Under the pieces are notes generated by a model. The model made no database searches. It was given only the letters and a program-made list of their open reading frames with translations, and was not told the DNA's origin. From Mucilaginibacter sp. OK098 (GTDB taxonomy: Bacteria > Bacteroidota > Bacteroidia > Sphingobacteriales > Sphingobacteriaceae), in the NCBI RefSeq assembly GCF_900142915.1, contig NZ_FRCM01000005.1, positions 124,001 to 188,000 on the forward strand: a DNA stretch of 64,000 nt. The letters are read 5' to 3'. The translations under genes and the position numbers were made by a program. Within the stretch, counting starts at the first letter, position 1. The number at the start of each line of letters is the position of its first letter. Shown piece after piece: positions 41,738 to 54,480 of this stretch.

Positions 41738-43054
41738 TCACACCACCTCTGCCACCACAAAAGTACTACCCCCTACAAAAACCAAATCACTTTCCCCGGC
41801 AGCCTGTTGCGCTGCTTCTAACGCCGCCTTTACCGATGAGTGGGCGGCGCCATGTAAACCAAAGCCTTCTGCTTTAAGCCATAAGCTTTGCGCGTCGAGT
41901 CCCCTTGGGATATCGGGCTTGCAAAAGTAGTAGCGGGCATTGGTTGGCAAAATGGTTAAAATTTTACTGATGTCTTTATCATTTACCACGCCTAAAACAA
42001 AGTGAAGCTTGTTGTAGGCAACAGCTGCAATATTCTGCAAAACTTCCTGCATGCCTTCGGGATTGTGGCCTGTATCGCAAATGGTTAAAGGGTGTCTGCT
42101 TAAAACCTCCCAGCGGCCATGTAAGCCGGTTAAAGTTTTTACCTGGCTTAGCGCCGATGTTAAATGTGCATCAGTAATAATAAACCCCTGCAAACGCAGC
42201 TCTTCCACAGCGCAAAGTACTGTTTTTATATTTTTAAGCTGATAGGAGCCGGTTAGGTCGAGTCGGAGATTAGAGATTAGAGGTTGGAGATTAGAGGTTA
42301 GGGAATTTCTTTCGACTTCTACCTCCAAAAATTCATTTATGTCCTTGTCTAACCGCTGATCTCTAACCACTGATCTCCATACCTCCGAAGCAAAAATTAT
42401 TTTTGCTTCGGAGGTATTAGCTTTATCTATAAAAATAGCTGCAACTTCTTCCTGGTGTTCACCAACTATTACCGGAACACCAGGCTTTATGATCCCTGCT
42501 TTTTCGGCAGCAATAAGCTGTAGGGTATCGCCTAAAATATTCATATGATCCCAACCTATGTTGGTGATAACCGAGAGGAGCGGAGTAATAATATTGGTTG
42601 AGTCTAACCTTCCGCCAAGACCAACCTCAATAATGGCAATATCAACTTTTTCTTTGGCGAAAATATCAAACGCAAGGGCAACGGTCATCTCAAAAAAAGA
42701 AGGTTGGATCTCATCAAAATCGCTTCTATGAGTTTCAACAAAATCAATAACCACCCGTTCGCTTATCATTTGCCCGTTTATGCGGATGCGCTCCCTGAAA
42801 TCTTTTAAATGAGGCGAAGTATACAACCCGGTTTTATAACCTGCTGTTTGCAGTATGGCTGCCAGCATGTGCGAGGTTGAGCCTTTGCCATTTGTACCAC
42901 CCACATGCACACTTTTAAATTTATGCTGTGGATTATCCACTTTATCCATTAATGCAATGGTATTGGTAAGATCTGCTTTATAGGCTGATGCGCCATCGCG
43001 GGTAAAAAGCGGCAGTTGGCTGTAGAGGTATTGGATAGTCTGAGAGTAGTTCAT
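41738..43054 (-). CDS. folC: Folylpolyglutamate synthase / dihydrofolate synthase, with an in-frame repeat insert
   Basis: The 438-residue protein has the ATP P-loop GGTNGKGSTSHMLAA (near 52-66), the Mg-site segment IIEVGLGGRLDSTNI and the C-terminal domain with CDTGHNPEGM. It adds glutamate to folates. Residues about 212-267 differ from usual FolC: they are encoded by a perfect 39-bp palindrome (42379-42417) and heptamer words (42266-42376), and read FASEVW..RSVVRDQRL..SNLQPLISNLR. The frame is kept. The start codon lies in the heptamer words at 43049-43076. It is last in the ExbBD/TonB cluster. Confidence 0.93.
   Translation of the reverse strand: MNYSQTIQYLYSQLPLFTRDGASAYKADLTNTIALMDKVDNPQHKFKSVHVGGTNGKGSTSHMLAAILQTAGYKTGLYTSPHLKDFRERIRINGQMISERVVIDFVETHRSDFDEIQPSFFEMTVALAFDIFAKEKVDIAIIEVGLGGRLDSTNIITPLLSVITNIGWDHMNILGDTLQLIAAEKAGIIKPGVPVIVGEHQEEVAAIFIDKANTSEAKIIFASEVWRSVVRDQRLDKDINEFLEVEVERNSLTSNLQPLISNLRLDLTGSYQLKNIKTVLCAVEELRLQGFIITDAHLTSALSQVKTLTGLHGRWEVLSRHPLTICDTGHNPEGMQEVLQNIAAVAYNKLHFVLGVVNDKDISKILTILPTNARYYFCKPDIPRGLDAQSLWLKAEGFGLHGAAHSSVKAALEAAQQAAGESDLVFVGGSTFVVAEVV
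42266..42300. repeat. Heptamer word array inside folC
   Basis: On the plus strand: GAGATTA, GAGATTA, GAGGTTG, GAGATTA, GAGGTTA, exactly 35 bp. On the coding strand it encodes part of SNLQPLISNLR. The same words are found between genes at 62486-62507. Confidence 0.9.
42349..42376. repeat. Second heptamer array in folC, opposite orientation
   Basis: CTAACCG, CTGATCT, CTAACCA, CTGATCT in 7-bp register; the reverse complement reads AGATCAG and (T/C)GGTTAG, so these are the words of the first array in the other orientation, 48 bp away. Confidence 0.88.
42379..42417. repeat. Perfect 39-bp palindrome inside folC
   Basis: Arms of 19 bp (ATACCTCCGAAGCAAAAAT and its exact inverse) flank one central T. 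It encodes residues around TSEAKIIFASEVW. It abuts the heptamer words at 42376. Confidence 0.93.
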
Positions 43055-43076
43055 GGTTCATGGTTGATAGTTCATA
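43049..43076. repeat. Heptamer array covering the folC start codon
   Basis: GTTCATG, GTTCATG, GTTGATA, GTTCATA. The folC ATG (43052-43054, minus strand) is the CAT of the first word. Confidence 0.9.
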
Positions 43077-43153
43077 GCATCAACCGGCAGGCAAAGGTAT
43101 ATATTGTAGTTGATGGTTGATGGCAATAAACGAAAAACGTCAACAGCGTAGCT

Positions 43154-43188
43154 ACTATGAACTATGAACCATCAACTATGAACTAGTC
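43154..43188. repeat. Heptamer array covering the tonB-like stop codon
   Basis: ACTATGA, ACTATGA, ACCATCA, ACTATGA, ACTAGTC. It is roughly the reverse of the words at 43049. The TAG of the TonB-like gene lies in the last word. Confidence 0.88.
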
Positions 43189-43989
43189 AACCTTAAACCT
43201 AAAAGTATATTGTCCTTTTTGAGTGCCCGAGGCGGGGGTTGATGAAGTGAACTTGGTGTTTTTTATGGAGTTTATGCAGCTTTCAATCAAACTCAGATCG
43301 GCCCTGGTCTTAGCCCTGTTAGCCTGGGCCGAAATTACATTGCCGCTTTGATCCACAACAAAATCAATAACCACAATGCCCGGAACACGATGAATATTTT
43401 GCGGATCGGGTGCACTCACAAAGCTCCAGTTTGGCATTTTTAAACCATTTCCTGATCCCCCGGGGCCATAATCATCACTTAATGTTGAGCCATTTTTACT
43501 TCCCTGGTTACCCGGAGTAGTGGTAGTGCCATCACCTTCGCCGGCACCTTTATTTGTAGCGCCTTTATATAAAGCGTTTTGATTAAGTTGCGGTTTGGCT
43601 ACCGGTTTAGCGGGTTGTGTGGCCACGGTTTTGCTCTGCTTTTTTGAGTTTGCGGCAACATTAGGTGCGTCCTCTGCATCCTGGGTTACCACTTTTTTAT
43701 CGCTGTTGTCCTCCTGTGTCTTTTGTTCCGTAGGTGGGGCGTTATTTACCTTGGTTGGCTTTGTTTTATTTGCTTTTTCGGCAACTGAAGGCTCTTCGGT
43801 GCTTGACTGGTTGGTACCCATCCCCTCATCAACAGTGCCGTAATTTACCAATATTCCACCAGTCCCATCAGGGGGAGCGGGTGGGTTTACGAAAACAATA
43901 AAGTAACACAAAGCAATCACAACAGCCAATATAATGCCTGTAGCTAAAAACGCTTTTGGGTAATTATTTTCTTCTTCTATTGTAGTCAT
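43183..43989 (-). CDS. TonB-like energy transducer
   Basis: The 268-residue protein has a membrane helix at about 12-34 and a long Pro/Lys/Thr/Asn-rich periplasmic linker (about 40-180). The C-terminal domain begins near RVPGIVVIDFVVDQSGNVISAQANRAK and is TonB-like but short. It would pass ExbB-ExbD energy to an outer-membrane partner, most simply the barrel encoded upstream in the same cluster. Both its start and stop codons lie in heptamer arrays. It follows exbD by 85 bp. Confidence 0.85.
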   Translation of the reverse strand: MTTIEEENNYPKAFLATGIILAVVIALCYFIVFVNPPAPPDGTGGILVNYGTVDEGMGTNQSSTEEPSVAEKANKTKPTKVNNAPPTEQKTQEDNSDKKVVTQDAEDAPNVAANSKKQSKTVATQPAKPVAKPQLNQNALYKGATNKGAGEGDGTTTTPGNQGSKNGSTLSDDYGPGGSGNGLKMPNWSFVSAPDPQNIHRVPGIVVIDFVVDQSGNVISAQANRAKTRADLSLIESCINSIKNTKFTSSTPASGTQKGQYTFRFKVD

Positions 43990-44019
43990 TGGTCATTAAA
44001 TCATTAGTCATTGGTGAGT
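43985..44019. repeat. Heptamer array covering the tonB-like start codon
   Basis: GTCATTG, GTCATTA, AATCATT, AGTCATT, GGTGAGT. The start codon of the TonB-like gene (43987-43989) is in the first word. Confidence 0.87.
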
Positions 44020-44042
44020 GGGCGACAATTCATATAACTTAT

Positions 44043-44077
44043 CCACTCACTACTCTCCATTCACCACTCACTAACTA
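44043..44077. repeat. Heptamer array covering the exbD stop codon
   Basis: CCACTCA, CTACTCT, CCATTCA, CCACTCA, CTAACTA in exact 7-bp register. The exbD TAG (44075-44077) lies in the last word. The 85-bp exbD-tonB spacer is therefore mostly repeat. Confidence 0.88.
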
Positions 44078-44473
44078 CTTCGGTTCCGTTGCCAAAACCA
44101 TTTTAATATTTAGTTTTTGCGATACATCCATTACGGCTACCACATCCTGTATGGCAACTGTTTTATCAACATACAAAACTATGGTTAGTTCTGTTGCCAT
44201 TTTTTTATAGCCTGCTAAAACAGTCGGCAAGTCATTAACAGCAACAACCTTTTTATCCACGGTGTATTGCAAATCCTTGCTTATTGAAACGTTGATTGTT
44301 TTTTTAGAAACAGACTGCCCTGATGATGATTTAGGCAGCAACAGTTTTACCACATTGGGGTTGGTAACCGTTGACGCTATAAGGAAAAACAGGAGCAGGA
44401 AAAACATGATGTCGTTCATGGCCGATGTATGCACTTCGGCCGAAACTCCCCTGTGTCTTTTTCTTAAATTCAT
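44075..44473 (-). CDS. exbD: ExbD/TolR-family proton-channel subunit
   Basis: The 132-residue protein has a short cytoplasmic start (RKRHRGVSAEV), one membrane helix with the key Asp (MNDIMFFLLLFFLIAS, Asp21) and a periplasmic domain. With ExbB it uses the proton-motive force to drive TonB. It overlaps exbB by 4 bp. Length is typical. Confidence 0.92.
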   Translation of the reverse strand: MNLRKRHRGVSAEVHTSAMNDIMFFLLLFFLIASTVTNPNVVKLLLPKSSSGQSVSKKTINVSISKDLQYTVDKKVVAVNDLPTVLAGYKKMATELTIVLYVDKTVAIQDVVAVMDVSQKLNIKMVLATEPK

Positions 44474-45183
44474 TTGCTCGGTTCTTCTAACAGGTCAATA
44501 AATTCAATGGCATCGGTTTCGAGCCTTAATATTACCTTATCAACCATCATATTTAAAATATGATAACATACATAAGCTACAATGCCCACAAACAAACCGG
44601 CTGCTGATGTTACCATTTTTACATAAAGTCCACCTGATATAACGCCCATACTGATGTTATCCGTCTTCGATATGTCGTAAAAAATTTTGATAACCCCGGC
44701 AATGGTTCCCAAAAAGCCAAACATGGGGGCAATCCCGGCAACTATTCCTAAAATACCAATATTCTTTTCCAATTTTGATACTTCAAGCTTGCCAACGTTT
44801 TCAATAGCGCCTTCAATATCCTTAATTGGGCGGCCTATTCTTAATAAACCTTTTTGCAACATGCGGCCAAGCGGCGTATTGCTGTTACGGCAAATGGCTA
44901 TCGCCGATTCAAGGTTACCTGAAACAATGCTTGATCGTACCTGCATCATCAGGTTAGATTCGTTTGTTGAAGCTTTGCGGATAGTAAAGTATCTTTCAAA
45001 AAATATCACCAGGCCTAAAACCGCCAAAATCCCGATCGGGATCATCACCCATCCGCCTTTTATCAACAGATCGCCAAAGCGCAGATCTTCCTGTGGAAGA
45101 GCAGCCAATTGCTGGCCTGCATGTTTGGCGGTATCTATAAGCTTGTGTGCGGTATCTGTTGCCTGTATAAATAATAATGTCAT
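44470..45183 (-). CDS. exbB: ExbB/TolQ/MotA-family proton-channel protein
   Basis: The 237-residue protein has three membrane helices (about 44-66, 145-170, 184-208), with a large cytoplasmic loop between the first two. The family core is MLQKGLLRIGRPIKDIEGAIENVGKLEVSKLEKNIGILGIVAGIAPMFGFLGTIAGVIKIF. It forms the proton channel with ExbD. It overlaps exbD by 4 bp and follows the HU/SPOR gene by 3 bp. Confidence 0.93.
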   Translation of the reverse strand: MTLLFIQATDTAHKLIDTAKHAGQQLAALPQEDLRFGDLLIKGGWVMIPIGILAVLGLVIFFERYFTIRKASTNESNLMMQVRSSIVSGNLESAIAICRNSNTPLGRMLQKGLLRIGRPIKDIEGAIENVGKLEVSKLEKNIGILGIVAGIAPMFGFLGTIAGVIKIFYDISKTDNISMGVISGGLYVKMVTSAAGLFVGIVAYVCYHILNMMVDKVILRLETDAIEFIDLLEEPSK

Positions 45184-45186
45184 CCT

Positions 45187-46248
45187 TTAAGGGTTTATTG
45201 CTAGTATATATGATTTTTTATTGATCTTCCCGGCTTTTTCCAGAACCTTCATTGCTCCATCTGCATCAATTTCCGTTGGGAATGTCCCCACAGAAATTTT
45301 TAAACGGGGCCCGGGTGCATCGGTAACTATTTTTGCGTCAACACCCCTGGCCTTTAAACGTTGAACTTCGGTGTTGGCATAATTTATCTGTCTGAAATTG
45401 CTGACGATTATTTCATAGCGGGTATGCTTAGTAGTATCTGCAGCAGTTGTAACAACCGGGTTGGTAGCAGGCGGAACTGTTTTTATGGCAGTATCTTTAA
45501 CTGGGGCGGGTATAGCTTTTTTAACAGAATCGGCTTTTACCTCACGTCTGTAAACGGGTACAACGGTGTCTTTTTTACCTGTTATACGGTTATATGTTGC
45601 GCCCAGCTTATCAAATGCTCCGGGGTAAAACTTATACACTCCAAATATTGCCAATGCAATCACACTTACCGCAATTAATATAATAAGCCAGATATTTATC
45701 GGTTTTTTACGCTCGGTTTCTTCTTCAAAATATTGGTCATTCTCATTGGCCTGCGCCGGCATGGGCTTAGTAATTAACACAGGAGCCGGGCCAGGGTCGG
45801 TAAATGACGGTTTTGAATACTGATCGTTTAGCGATTGCCCCTGTTTATAAATGTTTATCGGTGGATAACCATAAAATGCAGGGTCATCAGCTATTTTATC
45901 GTTTGGCTTAAAAACAAGTTGGTCCTTATCAGTATAAAATAAGCCAAGGTCGGCAAAAAGGTATTTTCCTGTTGATGCTTCCTCTCTTAATTTGCTAACG
46001 AATTTTTCGGCAAAGTATTTGGATGATGCCAGCGATATATTTTTTTTATCGGCAACATATTGAGTAAAAGTATCATCATCATCTTTAGGCTGTGGCACAA
46101 ATTTTACCTTATGGTGGGGCGGATAAAACCTGGCTTCGTTATCATTATAATACCCGTTTACACGTTCGCGCACAAAGTAGCCAAGGCCAGGTACGCTTAC
46201 TTCCTCGTACTGTCCTAATAATTCGCTTAAATAGTCGGCTAAATTCAT
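45187..46248 (-). CDS. HU-CCDC81-type and SPOR domain membrane protein
   Basis: The 353-residue protein starts with two HU-like CCDC81 domains (about 1-55 and 58-125; e.g. GQYEEVSVPGLGYFVRERVNGYY). A membrane helix lies at about 184-208, a Pro/Thr/Lys linker follows, and a SPOR domain covers about 277-353 (YEIIVSNFRQINYANTEVQRL, KISVGTFPTEIDADGAMKVL). SPOR domains bind septal, denuded glycan strands, so the protein probably links the cytoplasm to peptidoglycan. It lies 3 bp before exbB. Confidence 0.88.
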   Translation of the reverse strand: MNLADYLSELLGQYEEVSVPGLGYFVRERVNGYYNDNEARFYPPHHKVKFVPQPKDDDDTFTQYVADKKNISLASSKYFAEKFVSKLREEASTGKYLFADLGLFYTDKDQLVFKPNDKIADDPAFYGYPPINIYKQGQSLNDQYSKPSFTDPGPAPVLITKPMPAQANENDQYFEEETERKKPINIWLIILIAVSVIALAIFGVYKFYPGAFDKLGATYNRITGKKDTVVPVYRREVKADSVKKAIPAPVKDTAIKTVPPATNPVVTTAADTTKHTRYEIIVSNFRQINYANTEVQRLKARGVDAKIVTDAPGPRLKISVGTFPTEIDADGAMKVLEKAGKINKKSYILAINP

Positions 46249-46288
46249 TTCGCTAAAAGTACGGTTTATTATAAAATATCAAAAAAGC

Positions 46289-48136
46289 TTAAAAACTATA
46301 TCCAACGCCGCCAAATATATTAAATCCGTAATCAGGATAGTATACCCATGTTTGGCTGGTACTGTTTAAAATATTATTCACATGTACAAAAACCGAAAAT
46401 CTGCTGGTTGCCTTATAATCAACCGCACCGCTCAAATCTGCAAATGATGCAATTGATGCCTGGCCGGTTGTTGTGGCCGATGTTTGAATCAGATGCGGAT
46501 CCAGTGCCGAGCCACGGATCAGCAAGGTGCCTGATACGGTGATCTTATCATTAATATTAAATACGGTGCCACCTTTAAACAAAAATTTAGGCAGGTTCCA
46601 GGGTTCGCTCACAGTTGCCATCTGGTAATCTTTAAATTCAACCCTGCCAAAAATGTCTACATCTTCCGAGATCTTGTAATCCAATTCACCTGTAAACCCG
46701 CTTACACGCGATTTGCCTTCATCATAAATAACCTTAAACCTGTTGTATCCTTTTGAAAAATCAAAATCGTTCACAAACAGCGGCATATTTTTAACCTCGT
46801 TACGGAAAATGGTGGCTTTAAAACCAAGGCCGGGTGCAATGGTGCCTTTTACCCCTGCAGCAATATCAAGCTGGTCGATAGAGTTTCTTAAGTCAATGTT
46901 TTGGCCGAGGAAAGGGTTGATCATCGCAAAATCACGCATAGATGATTTGTTCACATCTCCTTTGGCCTCAACAAATATGCGTACATATTTGGGGATAACC
47001 TGGAGCTCGGCCCTTGCAGCCGGAAAAATATAAAAGGCGGATTTGTAACCAAACTGGTCAACAATATTTACACCTGCATCAATTTTATAATTATCACCCT
47101 GGAATTTTATGTAAGGATTAAGCCTGATGAGGCTATTGTTATGATCATAAAGGCTATCCTTTTGCGTGCTCAGGTCAAGCGAGGCAGCCAGGCCTGCATA
47201 AAATTGCTTTATAGTTTGATTGAGGAAGCCTGAAAGCACCAGGTTATTTTCCCTTGCCTTAAACGCATTGCTAAATGCATATCCCTTTAACTTTAGGGCA
47301 TAGGTAAAGTCATTTTCAACATCCTTATAGTTTTTTGCAAGCTCGCCTTCGGCACCTATGGTGCTGAAATGTTGCTTATTAACCTGTAAAATAGCAGGCG
47401 CATTATACTTATCAAATCCATAAAAATAATTGCTGTTGTAATTATAGGTAATGCGGCCGCTTATGTTATTCTCTTCACCAACGCTTTTACCAAATACGCC
47501 AACCTCTTCTTTAGCCGAATTTTGTTTGTACATAGTGCCGTTTTGTGCAAAATGTTTAAGCCATCCGCCAACTTGCAAAGCCTCGTCGCGGCCATTGGCA
47601 AAATAAGCTTCGCCATAGGTGGTTTTTAAACTTCCCAACCCGGCTTTTACATAGTTATTTGTTGGCACCGAGTCTTGCTCAGCGGGCCTTTTCATGGCAT
47701 CAAGGGGCTTAATGCTGGTGTTAAGCTCCAGTCTTTTATCAATGGGGATGTATATTAAAGGTGCTTTAAACGGCGTTTTATCCTCCAGGTCGGGGTTACG
47801 ACGGATCTTTACCGCATCAGCCAATACGGGCTTGTAAGCCGTGGTAACCACAATTTCCTGCGATAAATTACCTTCGAGCGCATCATTGCCTTTGCCTCCT
47901 TTTTTGGTAGTATCAACCGTAGCCTTAGTAGCGGCATCACCCAGGCCTGAAGCAATTTTTTGTGCAGGCGTTGTAGGTTTGGCAGCTTTTTTCACAGCCG
48001 GTTTGGTCTTTGCAACTGTTTTTGCTGCCGGTTTTTTAGCCTTGTGCTTTGTTTGTGCGTGTGCAGGAACAAAGTATAAAGCTATTATTAAGGTAAGCAG
48101 CGTGTATATATATTTAAATTTCATTGCTTGTCTCAT
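46289..48136 (-). CDS. Plug-less outer-membrane beta-barrel protein (TonB-receptor-like)
   Basis: The 615-residue protein may start at 48136 or at the ATG at 48124, which fits its signal peptide better (ends VPAHAQ). A basic Lys/Ala/Pro segment (about 30-68) follows, then a short EIVVTTAYKPVLADAVKIRR stretch with no plug domain. The remainder is a barrel ending in YPDYGFNIFGGVGYSF. It resembles the barrel part of TonB-dependent receptors but lacks a recognisable plug. It lies between the TPR gene and the HU/SPOR gene in the ExbBD/TonB cluster. Confidence 0.83.
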   Translation of the reverse strand: MRQAMKFKYIYTLLTLIIALYFVPAHAQTKHKAKKPAAKTVAKTKPAVKKAAKPTTPAQKIASGLGDAATKATVDTTKKGGKGNDALEGNLSQEIVVTTAYKPVLADAVKIRRNPDLEDKTPFKAPLIYIPIDKRLELNTSIKPLDAMKRPAEQDSVPTNNYVKAGLGSLKTTYGEAYFANGRDEALQVGGWLKHFAQNGTMYKQNSAKEEVGVFGKSVGEENNISGRITYNYNSNYFYGFDKYNAPAILQVNKQHFSTIGAEGELAKNYKDVENDFTYALKLKGYAFSNAFKARENNLVLSGFLNQTIKQFYAGLAASLDLSTQKDSLYDHNNSLIRLNPYIKFQGDNYKIDAGVNIVDQFGYKSAFYIFPAARAELQVIPKYVRIFVEAKGDVNKSSMRDFAMINPFLGQNIDLRNSIDQLDIAAGVKGTIAPGLGFKATIFRNEVKNMPLFVNDFDFSKGYNRFKVIYDEGKSRVSGFTGELDYKISEDVDIFGRVEFKDYQMATVSEPWNLPKFLFKGGTVFNINDKITVSGTLLIRGSALDPHLIQTSATTTGQASIASFADLSGAVDYKATSRFSVFVHVNNILNSTSQTWVYYPDYGFNIFGGVGYSF

Positions 48137-48138
48137 TT

Positions 48139-51100
48139 TTATTCTTTGTTATCCTGTTTCTTTTCCTCTGGTTTCTTTTCCTCTGGTTTCTTTTCGTCTG
48201 GTTTCTGATCAGCTTTTCCACCCGAGAGCTGATCCAGCTTTTGTTTAGCCGTTGGCAATATGTCATCATCGCCTTTGTAGTTATCAATAACACTTTGCAG
48301 CGTTGCCTTAGCCTGGAAATTGTCTTTTAGCGCTTCATAATTATCGGCGAGTAAAATAAAGGTTTTGGTTACCCAGTAATCATAATTAGGAAGGTCCTTT
48401 ACCAACTCGAAGCAGGTTTTTTGCGATGCCTTATACTTTCCTTTTTCAAACTCAATTTCGGCAATATTGTATTTTGCTTCGGCTGCTGCAACAGTTTTGG
48501 TATTGGTAAGTGTATAGTTAAACTCAGTTATTGCTTTGGTAGTATCCCCTTTTTGCAGGTAGGCCTGACCAGCGTAAAGGCCTGTTTTAAATTTATCCTC
48601 CTGGGCGGTTTTTTCATTGCCGCGTATCAGCTTAACATAGTTTAGCGCATCGTCAGGCATTTCCATCTGCGCATAGCAAACCAATAGGTTATTTATGGCC
48701 CAGGTGTAATCAGCTTTATACTCCGAGTTCGTTTCCAGCTTTTTAAGATAAGGGATAGCCTCGTTATATTTCTTCTGATTCATGTACAGTTTTGCCATGC
48801 TTATTAACGACTGCTCTGTATAAGGGCTAGTCCAGTCGTTCAATATTACATTATAGTCAACAACAGCCTCATCAAGCCTCTTCAGGTTTACCAGGCTTTG
48901 TGCCCGGATAAATCTTGCCTGTTTTTCATAGATCGGCTTGTTTTTAAATTTATCATAATAAGCATTTACAGCCCCAACCGTTCCCTGCCAGTCGCCCTTT
49001 ACGTACAAGTTGTTAGCCGCAGTTATCATGATGCTTTCCTGGTCAGCCGCTGTATAATTAGCGATAGGTGTTGTTGCTGCATAATTGATAAAGGTTTGTG
49101 CATCGCCTTTATCCGTATAGATCTTCTCAACCTGTTTAAGTGCCAGCTTGGCCTCATCGGTTGATGAATAATCCTTTATAACCGTTTTAAACGACTCCAC
49201 CGCCAGCGAATCATTACCCGCATTGTAATCAATAAGCCCGATAGTTACTATCGCACGCGACACGTAGCTGCTGGTTGGATATTTTTTTACCATTGCCTGC
49301 AGATCGCTTTTCGCCTTGTCGCCTTCATTCTTTAAAAAGTAGGTATAAGCAATTTCAAACGATGCATCATCAGCGTAATCAGAATTGGGGTAGGTGTTAA
49401 GCAAATCAGTAAGTGTACTAATCTTTGTATCCGGGGCATTCTGTAAACCCTGGATCATACCGCGCTGAAACAAGGCGTAATCCTGACCGGGGCTATGCTT
49501 TTCAATTATCCGGTTATAATATTCAAGTGCCCGGCCATAGTTTTTCATTACAAAATAGCTGTCGCCCAGGCGGGTCACAGCATCATTTGTTGTATTGGGG
49601 TCTTTTTCTTCACCTTGCAAAAACTTTTGAAAATAAGTAGCTGCCTTTTTATACTGCTCATCGCCAAAGGCAGCATAGGCCAATGCATAGTTAGCATAAT
49701 TGTATACACCGGTTTCGCTGGCTCCGTCAAAAGCAAGGAATTTTTCAAAATTATCAACCGATTCACCATACTTCCTTACCTCGTACATGGCCTCGGCCAT
49801 CCAGTAAGTGGTCATCACTTCAATTTTATTGTCAACCGGGTTTTTTAATGAACGCAGAAAAATGCCAATAGCATTTTCAAAGGCACGTTCGTTATAAAAC
49901 TCAAGACCTCGGTAATAGGTGACTTTTTGGTAAGCAGCCTGTGCGCTGGCAGATTTATTGGGGATAGGCTCCAGTATTTCAACAGCCTCTTTATAGTTAT
50001 GTGAGTTAAGCAGCTCTTCGCCCAGCAATGTTTTAACTTCGTTATTGCGGGTTGAGTTAGGATAGTTTTTTAAATATAGCCTGGTAGCATCAAGCGCCTG
50101 GGTGTTAAAATCAAGCTCGTATGATAGTTTAGCATATTCGTACAGCGCGTCCTCCTGCAATTGTTTATCAAAATTAAGTCTTGATGCCGCAAAAAAGGCG
50201 CTGCGTGCACTTTGCTTATTATTCATTTTTAGGAAAACATTCCCTAAAGTATAATTACCGTTCTGACTAAAAACGTCATTTTGCTGTTGCAATTTTTCAA
50301 GCTCGCTTGCCGCTTTTCCAAAATTGCCTACCTTAAAATAGGTGTAGCCCATCTGGTAACTGTCCTGCGTATTTTGGGTATGGCCCTGGTCTTCATCTTC
50401 GAAACGCCCGTAATACCTGGCTGCATTATCATAATCGGCCTTAGCAAAATATGATGCTGCAATTATGCGCAGCATTTCAGTTTCGTGCTGCTGATGGGTG
50501 TTTTTGATGATCGGCACTGCATAGCTAAGCACATCGTCATAACGCTTATCTAAAAAATAGACGGCTGTTATATAATAGGGATAGCTGTTCTCATATTTTT
50601 TTGAGTTTTTAAGCCGTTCAAAATTCACCAGCGCTAAATGATAATCTTTATTCAAATAGGCTATATAAGCAAAGTAATAAACAGCATCGTCAGTAAATGG
50701 TGAATGCGTGTTTTTTACTTCACTAAAAAGTTGCTGAGCACTTTTATAATCGTTGGTAGCAAAATAGGCATAGCCTTTACGGAATTTGTACTCTGTATTT
50801 TGCCTTCCGCTTAATTCATCCGCCTGCACTTTGTCAAACCAGCGCAAGGCATCGGTATATTTTTCCTGCCTTGAATATGATCGTCCTATCTGGAAGTAAG
50901 CCAGTTTTGTTAATGGATTTTCGGGATGTTCTTTTATAAAACGCAGGAACATGCTTTCTGCATCATCGTTCCCCAACTCAAGGGCGCATAACGCCTCGTA
51001 ATATTGCGAGTTTTCTTTTATTAAAGATAATTCAGATTCAAACTTAGGCTGTGTGCTTGTTTTAACTCTTGAAGTTTCAACCAGCCGAAATTGTTCGGCC

Positions 51101-51243
51101 GCCGCAACATACTTACCTTTACCAAACAGTTCAGTAGCCGCATGATAGGTACGGTAAACATCAAACGATTGGTTTTGCTGGGCGCGTGTCGTTAAAACAA
51201 AAAATATAGGTACAAGAAAAGAGATGTATTTAAGTTTTATCAT
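48139..51243 (-). CDS. Large secreted tetratricopeptide-repeat protein
   Basis: I start at the ATG at 51243 (1,034 residues), which gives a good signal peptide (MIKLKYISFLVPIFFVLTTRAQQ); the open frame goes on upstream to 51309. The body is a long run of TPR helices of the YbgF/BamD-like kind (AYFQIGRSYSRQEKYTDALRWFDKVQ, PNSDYADDASFEIAYTYFLKNEGD, SYVSRAIVTIGLIDYNAG). The C-terminal tail is a KPEEK repeat encoded by a 15-bp tandem array. It lies 2 bp before the barrel gene, so they are expressed together. It is probably a periplasmic scaffold. Confidence 0.9.
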   Translation of the reverse strand: MIKLKYISFLVPIFFVLTTRAQQNQSFDVYRTYHAATELFGKGKYVAAAEQFRLVETSRVKTSTQPKFESELSLIKENSQYYEALCALELGNDDAESMFLRFIKEHPENPLTKLAYFQIGRSYSRQEKYTDALRWFDKVQADELSGRQNTEYKFRKGYAYFATNDYKSAQQLFSEVKNTHSPFTDDAVYYFAYIAYLNKDYHLALVNFERLKNSKKYENSYPYYITAVYFLDKRYDDVLSYAVPIIKNTHQQHETEMLRIIAASYFAKADYDNAARYYGRFEDEDQGHTQNTQDSYQMGYTYFKVGNFGKAASELEKLQQQNDVFSQNGNYTLGNVFLKMNNKQSARSAFFAASRLNFDKQLQEDALYEYAKLSYELDFNTQALDATRLYLKNYPNSTRNNEVKTLLGEELLNSHNYKEAVEILEPIPNKSASAQAAYQKVTYYRGLEFYNERAFENAIGIFLRSLKNPVDNKIEVMTTYWMAEAMYEVRKYGESVDNFEKFLAFDGASETGVYNYANYALAYAAFGDEQYKKAATYFQKFLQGEEKDPNTTNDAVTRLGDSYFVMKNYGRALEYYNRIIEKHSPGQDYALFQRGMIQGLQNAPDTKISTLTDLLNTYPNSDYADDASFEIAYTYFLKNEGDKAKSDLQAMVKKYPTSSYVSRAIVTIGLIDYNAGNDSLAVESFKTVIKDYSSTDEAKLALKQVEKIYTDKGDAQTFINYAATTPIANYTAADQESIMITAANNLYVKGDWQGTVGAVNAYYDKFKNKPIYEKQARFIRAQSLVNLKRLDEAVVDYNVILNDWTSPYTEQSLISMAKLYMNQKKYNEAIPYLKKLETNSEYKADYTWAINNLLVCYAQMEMPDDALNYVKLIRGNEKTAQEDKFKTGLYAGQAYLQKGDTTKAITEFNYTLTNTKTVAAAEAKYNIAEIEFEKGKYKASQKTCFELVKDLPNYDYWVTKTFILLADNYEALKDNFQAKATLQSVIDNYKGDDDILPTAKQKLDQLSGGKADQKPDEKKPEEKKPEEKKQDNKE
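48152..48207. repeat. 15-bp tandem repeat at the end of the TPR gene
   Basis: About 3.5 copies of CTCTGGTTTCTTTTC. On the coding strand they encode the lysine/glutamate-rich KKPEE tail. Copy number could vary between strains without breaking the frame. Confidence 0.88.
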
Positions 51244-51505
51244 AAGGAGCAAACTAACGATTTGCGAAAATAGCGAAACCCCAAAAGGTATTCCACAATA
51301 GTAATTCACACTGTGTGGAGAACATTGTTTTTTAAACGGATAGAAAATATTGCATGGTATAGGTGTGGAAAACTTTGTGGGATGTTAAGAAACACCTTTG
51401 TTATTTTGAGCAGATCAAAAAAATTATAAAGACTTTTTTGAGATTTATGTAATTTGTATTTAAGCTGGGTGTAATACCCTGACCGGCACCACGTTATTGT
51501 TAACA

Positions 51506-52586
51506 ATGATTAAATCTATATTATTATTTATCATCGTTATATTTTCAAGCTTTCAATCTTCGCCACAACAAATTGATAGTATTGTTTTGGTTGATGAGCG
51601 GTTGCCGGTAACACCTAAAGAGTTTTATATAGCTAAAGTAATTGATCAGCGTACAGACAAAAATCCGGTTGCATTACTTTTTCCGACCAAAAATGTAAAA
51701 GGTGTACAACCCAAAACCTACCCCGTTGACTTGCAAGGGGGAGCTTTGCCTGCTATAAAGCAGTTTATTAGCAATAACGTGCCGCGAAATACTAAATTAC
51801 GCCCGTTAATTATCAGCCTGAAAAAGATAAGTGTAAGAGAAACAATCCTGGCAGGGAACATGATTGAAGGGCGTATAAATGTAATGTTTTCTTTCGCCCT
51901 TGATATGGGAGAGGATGAGATGCAATACCTTGGAGATTATAATGGCAATGCGGTTTATAACAGAAATGCCGGACAGAACCGCGACATAGAACCAACATTG
52001 CGCCATGTATTTTTAAATGGCTTGTTATATATAAACACCTGGGTGAACCAACAGGCAGAAACCAATATTAAGTTAGCCCGCAGCGTTAAAGTTACATTTA
52101 CAGATTACAGTGAAAAGCCCGAAGGCGACAGTATTTACTATACCGTTAAACGGCCTTTAGCCTGGGCTGATTTTCAGTCGAAAATACCAAACAGTAAATA
52201 TGAGGCAGAGGTGTTTCCAACCCTGGGCTATGATGAACATGTCGAAATTATTAAAGGAATAATTAACCTGCGTATTGCTGTTAAAGCCTGTTTACCAAAA
52301 AGTGCAAGCTGGGCAAAGGAAGGCAGCAAAAATGATTATACTTTAAATCACGAACAGCGGCACTTTGATATTGTAAAAATAGCTGCGGAACACTTTAAGC
52401 AGAAGATTAAAGCGAGAAGCTTGTCGACAAATAATTATGACGGCCCAATAAATGAAGAATACCTGGATGCTTACCGCGAAATGAATAGCCTGCAAAAGCA
52501 ATATGATGATGAAACCCATCACGGTACCAATACGACAGAACAGCAAAAGTGGAATGAAAAGATAGATAAGGAACTGATAGAGTTGG

Positions 52587-52600
<14 letters not shown>
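51506..52600 (+). CDS. Secreted protein with DUF922-like HExxH region
   Basis: The ATG at 51506 gives 364 residues with a signal peptide of about 18-20. The middle and end carry YTLNHEQRHFDIVKIAAEHFKQKI near 280-300; HEQRH is an HExxH motif and HEQ-HFDI is typical of DUF922, a predicted zinc-dependent peptidase family. The N-terminal half is less recognisable. The last four residues (GISH) and the stop codon are encoded by the 7-bp array at 52587-52698. Confidence 0.75.
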
Positions 52601-52774: not shown

Positions 52775-53137
52775 CTACGCGGCTAATTGCCCTTTTATGG
52801 CCGAAAGCAGATCGTCAATATCAAATGGTTTTGCAATAAAAGCATCTGGAGCGCCTTTTTGATTCATTGATCCGGCAACATTATGGCTGGCTGATATTAA
52901 TATAACGGGTATGTCATGAGTTTCAACTTTGGCTTTAACAGCTTTGCAAAGATCACGGCCATCCATATTGCCCAGCATTATATCAAGCAAAATTAAATCA
53001 GGCATATTCGCCTTGATCTTCTCAAAAAGAAAATGTCCGTCAGAAAGTGTCTCTACCTCGTACCCCGAATCTTCAAGAATATATTGTAATATATCCAATA
53101 TATCCTTGTCGTCATCCACCGCTAATATCCTACGCAT
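52775..53137 (-). CDS. Stand-alone response-regulator receiver protein
   Basis: The 120-residue protein is a single CheY-like receiver: acidic pocket DDD (residues 7-9), phosphoacceptor Asp in LILLDIMLG (about 55), Thr/Ser in ISA, and Lys in AKPFDI (about 105). There is no output domain and no kinase next to it. A second similar gene is at 54124. The start codon is only 2 bp after a TAAATTTG -7 match, so it may be leaderless, or the match is chance. Confidence 0.9.
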   Translation of the reverse strand: MRRILAVDDDKDILDILQYILEDSGYEVETLSDGHFLFEKIKANMPDLILLDIMLGNMDGRDLCKAVKAKVETHDIPVILISASHNVAGSMNQKGAPDAFIAKPFDIDDLLSAIKGQLAA

Positions 53138-54123: not shown

Positions 54124-54480
54124 TTATAATAAACTGTTAACTTTTTCTACCAGTTCAGTTAAGTCAAACGGTTTGTTGATAATTGCATCACAGCCATAAG
54201 CTAACAGCTCGCTGTTATTATTTATATAAGCTGAATAGATAATTACAGGGGTGTTTTTAAAGCGTGGGTGCGATTTAATTTGCATGCATAATTCGCCGCC
54301 GTTTACACCGGCAACACGATAATCCAATATAACCAGGTCGGGTACAAATGTTTCAGCTAAAGAAATAACTGTATCGCTTCGCGAGGTGCTTTGTACATCA
54401 AAATCTGCGTATGTTAGTGTTTCATGCACTATATCCAGGATGTCCTGGTTATCATCCAATACTAAAATACGTTTTGCCAT
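54124..54480 (-). CDS. Stand-alone response-regulator receiver protein
   Basis: The 118-residue protein has the receiver pattern: DDN (residues 8-10), Asp in LVILDYRVAG (about 53), YSA and Lys in NKPFDLTEL (about 102). It has no output domain. It shares the zinc-ribbon neighbourhood with the receiver at 52775, suggesting a small regulatory cluster; direct partners are unknown. A -7 match, TAATTTTG, lies 7 bp upstream of the start. Confidence 0.9.
   Translation of the reverse strand: MAKRILVLDDNQDILDIVHETLTYADFDVQSTSRSDTVISLAETFVPDLVILDYRVAGVNGGELCMQIKSHPRFKNTPVIIYSAYINNNSELLAYGCDAIINKPFDLTELVEKVNSLL

Follow-up and report, generated by a model that had tools for sequence, protein, structure and literature searches.

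How do members of the Bacteroidota hold and constrict their outer membrane without Tol-Pal? A 2025 survey states, in its Bacteroidetes section, that tol-pal loci are absent from the phylum and that other systems stabilizing the outer membrane are still to be revealed (PMC12204202). A concrete candidate is a near-universal, motor-driven operon, which we analyzed in Mucilaginibacter sp. OK098 in a window of 64,000 nucleotides (NCBI RefSeq assembly GCF_900142915.1, contig NZ_FRCM01000005.1, positions 124,001 to 188,000 of the forward strand; coordinates below are those of the window). Six genes encode, in order, a tetratricopeptide repeat (TPR) protein, an outer-membrane barrel, an HU/SPOR protein, ExbB, ExbD and a TonB-like protein, and we are highly confident that they specify one functional unit. 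For the reading as a whole, a single proton-driven trans-envelope machine that is analogous to Tol-Pal but distinct from it and ancestral to most Bacteroidota, we consider the case evenly balanced. The six open reading frames all lie on the minus strand and are followed by folC:

48139 to 51243, minus strand: TPR scaffold protein, ~1034 aa, with many Pfam TPRs; present in 205 of 296 genomes of the phylum
46289 to 48136, minus strand: outer-membrane barrel protein, 615 aa, of the ~22-strand TonB-dependent-transporter type, plugless (structure model, Foldseek, BtuB alignment)
47786 to 47860, minus strand: TonB-box-like motif QEIVVTTAYKPVLADAVKIRRNPDL, barrel residues 93 to 117 (conservation; disordered periplasmic tail in the model)
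46292 to 47656, minus strand: beta-barrel domain, residues 161 to 615 (structure model)
45187 to 46248, minus strand: HU/SPOR inner-membrane protein, 353 aa (Pfam)
45892 to 46245, minus strand: two N-terminal cytoplasmic CCDC81-type HU domains, residues 2 to 119 (PF18174, PF18175)
45226 to 45426, minus strand: periplasmic SPOR domain, residues 275 to 341 (PF05036, 27.5 bits, cut-off 21)
44470 to 45183, minus strand: ExbB/TolQ-type motor subunit, 237 aa (PF01618, MotA_ExbB, 80.4 bits; ExbB tree)
44075 to 44473, minus strand: ExbD/TolR-type motor subunit, 132 aa, with a conserved membrane Asp (AMNDIMFFLLLFF; Pfam ExbD, 88.1 bits; homolog comparison)
43183 to 43989, minus strand: TonB-like force transducer, 268 aa (sub-threshold Pfam TonB_C; structure model)
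43891 to 43962, minus strand: transmembrane helix of the TonB-like protein, residues 10 to 33 (structure model)
43189 to 43452, minus strand: TonB C-terminal domain, predicted fold, residues 180 to 267 (structure model and PDB matches)
41738 to 43054, minus strand: folC (folylpolyglutamate synthase), the seventh gene, a downstream neighbor kept within the window's class

All six reading frames reported in a preliminary description of the locus were reproduced, as were the gaps between them: 2 bp between the TPR and barrel genes, 40 bp between barrel and HU/SPOR, 3 bp between HU/SPOR and ExbB, −4 bp between ExbB and ExbD and 85 bp between ExbD and the TonB-like gene. That description proposed an energized envelope machine, which is supported both by co-conservation of the operon and by a barrel model without a plug, and suggested that it may do outer-membrane or division work. 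The motor domains score above their Pfam cut-offs. It overlooked folC as a seventh conserved neighbor in the window's class and the conserved, TonB-box-like tail of the barrel.

Two findings had been set beforehand as refuting the proposal, a lack of co-conservation in Bacteroidota and a functional plug in the barrel, and both points came out in its favor. A gene-order survey showed that the arrangement recurs across the phylum. The sample comprised 296 genomes of the GTDB phylum Bacteroidota (f-numbers denote its families, L-numbers loci and G-numbers genomes), from which 80 neighborhoods were taken via HU, TPR or barrel matches, not via synteny, and their genes labeled by profiles. Parts of the operon order recur in ~25 families of several classes, and barrel-HU/SPOR-ExbB-ExbD is unbroken in 16 families. 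The complete order from the TPR gene to the TonB-like gene was found in f1, f8 and f9, in most cases with folC, and in f14, f16 and f30 without it. The same order with no TonB label occurs in f13, f18, f25, f29, f35, f39 and f44, and f21, f23 and f42 have barrel-HU/SPOR-ExbB-ExbD-TonB with the TPR gene elsewhere, as does f50, where HU/SPOR was not detected. TPR-barrel-HU stands without an adjoining motor in f2, f10, f19 and f31, and TPR-barrel only in f3, f4, f5, f6, f7 and f11; the f41 locus ends at a contig edge. Among the matches listed, the TPR and barrel genes are adjacent in 98 of the 135 genomes that have both (median gap between matches, 122 bp), and of the 37 genomes without this adjacency, all but one come from four families that are related to each other (f21, f23, f42 and f50). 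In Sphingobacteriaceae, the window's family, all seven genes, folC included, keep one order in 62 of 80 named loci. Such phylum-wide synteny excludes chance as the source of the grouping.

Could there be no machine at all, only housekeeping genes whose grouping serves their expression and a Ton motor that is spare? It speaks for this that folC, a cytoplasmic enzyme, is linked within the class as tightly as the other genes. However, other classes keep the order although folC is not there (L038, L042, L067-L073 and L079-L086), and matching parts, a TonB domain and a TonB-box-like tail, are encoded in one operon. We therefore consider this explanation very improbable; folC itself is probably not part of the machine.

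The occurrence of the individual parts is similarly broad. The TPR profile gave its 205 genomes at E 1e-30, and the barrel profile 259 of the 296 at E 1e-3, a count whose weak matches include ordinary TonB-dependent barrels. A 7-row TPR alignment was used for the TPR-based search for related loci. Almost all genomes of the sampled class keep the operon, and it also occurs in several further classes. Two near-complete genomes, G269 (f2) and G167 (f37), have no TPR protein at the threshold although they lie within groups having it, and are candidates for its recent loss.

Does the operon have a motor of its own? The membrane Asp of ExbD is kept in every homolog listed, and ExbB scored 64.5 bits against the TolQ equivalog (cut-off 221), which places the pair as a TolQ/TolR-type motor at superfamily level only. 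We built a tree from 41 ExbB/TolQ sequences, in which the ExbBs of the operon group with the folC-linked motors of Flavobacteriaceae in a single clade whose branching tracks taxonomy (all Bacteroidia rows, 100/99). This clade is separate from the TolQ of f17 and from a further ExbB encoded in the window's genome; the deepest split of the tree is weakly supported (81/54) and carries a long-branch warning. Because the operon ExbBs are one clade tracking taxonomy, the machine is probably ancestral to most of the Bacteroidota. The window's genome also encodes a separate ExbB-ExbD-ExbD set, and the operon motor thus looks dedicated.

The predicted arm of this motor is the TonB-like protein, which was modeled as a helix (residues 10 to 33), a disordered linker (residues 41 to 163) and a C-terminal domain. 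Its Pfam TonB_C match lies below cut-off; the structure model recovers a TonB domain, and the 12 best PDB matches of the C-terminal domain model are all TonB C-terminal domains. The transducer helix has a His in many deeper clades and an Asn in others.

What would the arm act on? The barrel model begins with a disordered stretch (residues 22 to 158; tail pLDDT, the model's local confidence score, ~30), followed by a ~22-strand barrel. With this model, the top 50 Foldseek rows are all TonB-dependent transporters, and it aligns to BtuB over residues 135-594 only, the barrel minus the plug, with Z 21.2 over 399 residues (VIA). Pfam returned no match for the window protein, and no Plug match was found in it or in the 18 members searched, one of which matches the Pfam TonB-dependent barrel family; a barrel profile run against the PDB finds TonB-dependent transporters. 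The model thus bears out the plugless barrel of the preliminary description, and for this reason a normal TonB receptor was rejected. Despite its predicted disorder, the stretch of residues 93 to 117 is the most conserved 25-residue window of the protein. Specifically, the information content is 3.69 bits at residues 91 to 120, compared with 2.89 in the barrel and 1.87 at residues 26 to 90. In nearly all families the tail has an acidic residue first and then alternating Ile/Val, with EIVVTTA, REVEIRG, QEITVEK, QTVNVIK, KTIDVTS and PEFVITG as examples from different families. The motif lies where a TonB box would be expected, and we read it as a putative TonB-box-like motif, on which the TonB-like protein likely pulls.

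The main rival, an energized transport or assembly system, would put this pull to another use: by acting on the barrel tail, the TonB-like protein would gate the passage of an essential molecule, be it a lipid, a polysaccharide, a cofactor or a protein, across the barrel, which is wide and plugless, and the TPR protein would serve as a periplasmic cap or chaperone. The barrel is indeed of a transporter family and has a TonB-box-like tail, folC adjoins the operon, and TPR proteins often serve assembly lines, the one here giving BamD/LapB-type matches. However, the structure model contains neither a plug nor ligand-binding plug loops, a transport function leaves unexplained why a membrane HU/SPOR protein is encoded mid-operon, and the operon, unlike nutrient receptors, is near-universal over very different lifestyles. 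We consider transport or assembly unlikely, albeit a serious contender.

The HU/SPOR protein does combine HU-like and SPOR domains, as had been predicted. PF18174 (HU-CCDC81_bac_1) matches with 41.7 bits against a cut-off of 26 and the SPOR domain likewise exceeds its cut-off, while PF18175 reaches 24.1 bits, below its cut-off of 35. As a rule, the denuded glycans of septa are what SPOR domains bind. Burroughs and colleagues are said to have predicted, in 2017, a chromosome-partition role for membrane HU-CCDC81 proteins. In several f2 genomes (L032, L034, L061 and L063), TPR-barrel-HU is kept and the HU protein ends after its membrane helix. In Flavobacteriaceae-like genomes (L008:7281-9589), HU/SPOR lies between dprA-like and acyl-CoA-thioesterase-like genes (names read from sequence), away from the motor, which in the Flavobacteriaceae-like f4 stands at a separate site as ExbB-ExbD-TonB-folC.

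These arrangements bear on a further possibility, a tether or shape system independent of the cell cycle, in which the motor would only tension a link from the outer-membrane barrel through the TPR protein to peptidoglycan along the whole cell, and the HU/SPOR protein would separately anchor or partition DNA. The loss of SPOR in some families, the separation of HU/SPOR from the motor in Flavobacteriaceae and the predicted partition role would all fit, but the septal preference of SPOR domains does not, and nor does the unbroken order of HU/SPOR with the motor in the 16 families. We judge a tether of this kind improbable.

The TPR protein has a signal peptide (conserved ..AQ), and a lipobox Cys was not seen in it; we read it as a soluble periplasmic TPR superhelix. 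It scores 173.7 bits against TIGR02795 (cut-off 90.1), but the matches fall on TPR stretches that recur along its 1034 aa, and 37 bits against the PRK10803 CpoB model (cut-off 383). Weak similarity to the PorW/SprE equivalog (56.1 bits), together with the shared phylum, could suggest a type IX secretion or gliding accessory, with a second motor besides GldLM. However, this score is far under the cut-off of 250, and type IX secretion is patchy in its distribution, whereas the operon is close to universal among genomes of the sampled class and extends to several other classes. On score and distribution the link was rejected, and we give it hardly any credence.

Is the operon a Tol-Pal set in disguise? 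The preliminary description held that it was not a standard one, and we concur: no full-length TolB was found in the operon or in the window's genome with a full-length TolB profile, nor any Pal above the curated cut-off in that genome, where the best TIGR02802 match, within a frame of 643 aa, reaches ~79 bits against a cut-off of 125.35. A standard Tol-Pal set was thus rejected. Because Pfam TolB_N alone undercounts TolB in f17, the full-length profile was used instead. It matches 63 genomes of the 296, every one of them from f17 (E ≤ 7e-181); the next match has E 2e-38 and covers part of the propeller only. Family f17 carries the FMO protein and is therefore a family of green sulfur bacteria. 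One f17 locus comprises tolQ, tolR, tolA, tolB, two pal and a cpoB-like gene, with an unrelated open reading frame between tolA and tolB. Pal was tested in 52 genomes and was above cut-off in all three from f17 and in none of the remaining 49. The TPR scaffold is present in 0 of the 63 TolB genomes, while the 205 genomes with the scaffold have no TolB and ~28 have neither. Thus, TolB and the TPR protein are mutually exclusive in the 296-genome sample.

How might the parts work together? ExbB and ExbD would form the inner-membrane proton motor, and the TonB-like protein would be its moving arm, a membrane helix and disordered linker ending in a TonB C-terminal domain that would dock on the TonB-box-like tail of the barrel. 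The barrel may derive from a TonB-dependent transporter that lost its plug; with the plug gone, we propose, the force is passed to the barrel, and through it to the outer membrane, and no transport channel opens. The giant periplasmic TPR protein would cap or gather barrels, and the HU/SPOR protein, with DNA-binding-type HU domains on its cytoplasmic side, would take the complex to denuded septal peptidoglycan through SPOR. The net effect would be an outer membrane drawn in and stabilized at the division site. We regard such a Tol-Pal-like role in division, whether in constriction or in stability of the outer membrane, as possible, falling just short of an even balance. Slightly more tentative is the fuller proposal that the operon is an ancestral, dedicated replacement of Tol-Pal in most Bacteroidota, with a plugless barrel as the motor's outer-membrane handle and one protein linking the machine both to septal peptidoglycan (SPOR) and to the nucleoid (cytoplasmic HU domains).

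Several observations weigh against this interpretation. In the homolog comparison, the TonB-like helix has neither His nor Asn in the window protein and its family, and motor coupling may therefore differ there. SPOR is missing from the HU homologs at L032, L034, L061 and L063, and the modules are split apart in Flavobacteriaceae. The contrast with Tol-Pal is suggestive, a single phylogenetic event resting on one clade: in an rpoB tree f17 groups with f15 and f28 in a clade (f28,(f15,f17)) without the TPR system, and since f15 and f28 have neither system, the contrast counts once and not several times. The TPR system and Tol-Pal both appear to be dispensable in some genomes, with neither detected in f15, f28, f12 and f37 at the thresholds used. 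Bacteroidota also have many OmpA-type proteins, and PorE is the current proposal for the outer membrane-peptidoglycan tether of Bacteroidetes (PMC12204202; Mol Biol Evol 2025 msaf138).

Other features lie around the operon. Between the TonB-like gene and folC, a 29-base inverted repeat (43047-43185) is predicted to form a long hairpin with a folding energy of −49 kcal/mol (z −6.6); it may be a regulatory element or a small mobile one. The TPR gene is preceded by a divergent DUF922 gene (51497-52600), found at the same position in the close relatives L023, L024 and L028, and two single-domain response regulators (52775-53137 and 54124-54480) are close upstream of the operon. At L038, L067, L072 and L073, from one group of classes, a convergent ComM/YifB-like ATPase gene (name read from sequence) lies downstream of ExbD.

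We found no publication describing the operon in the open-access literature, although subscription journals or preprints may hold one. The Bacteroidetes section of PMC12204202 does not mention it, and a linkage of HU-CCDC81/SPOR to the barrel-TPR-ExbBD-TonB set was likewise not found in open-access literature. The operon brings together matching outer-membrane, periplasmic and septum-binding parts. If the proposal is true, it would be, to our knowledge, the first case of a plugless TonB-dependent-transporter barrel serving as a mechanical handle and not as a channel.

How, finally, does the operon compare with known systems? Its HU/SPOR protein is a member of the HU-CCDC81 membrane proteins with SPOR (PF18174/PF18175). 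PorE is another proposed answer to what replaces Tol-Pal in Bacteroidetes, but it has no dedicated motor and consists of just one lipoprotein, in which domains resembling CpoB, TolB and Pal are combined. Canonical ExbBD-TonB with its transporters, such as BtuB, shares the motor, the TonB C-terminal domain fold, the barrel fold and the TonB-box-like tail. The operon differs in having no plug, a dedicated barrel within the operon and TPR and HU/SPOR partners, and it stands apart from the genome's ExbB-ExbD-ExbD set. With Tol-Pal (TolQRA-TolB-Pal-CpoB) it has in common the ExbB/TolQ-ExbD/TolR motor, a transducer that spans the membrane once and ends in a TonB/TolA-type C-terminal domain, a TPR protein in the periplasm and the operon layout. 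In contrast to Tol-Pal, however, it has neither a TolB propeller nor Pal, its outer-membrane element is a 22-strand plugless barrel, its TPR protein is ~1034 aa where CpoB is small, and it adds a membrane HU/SPOR protein.

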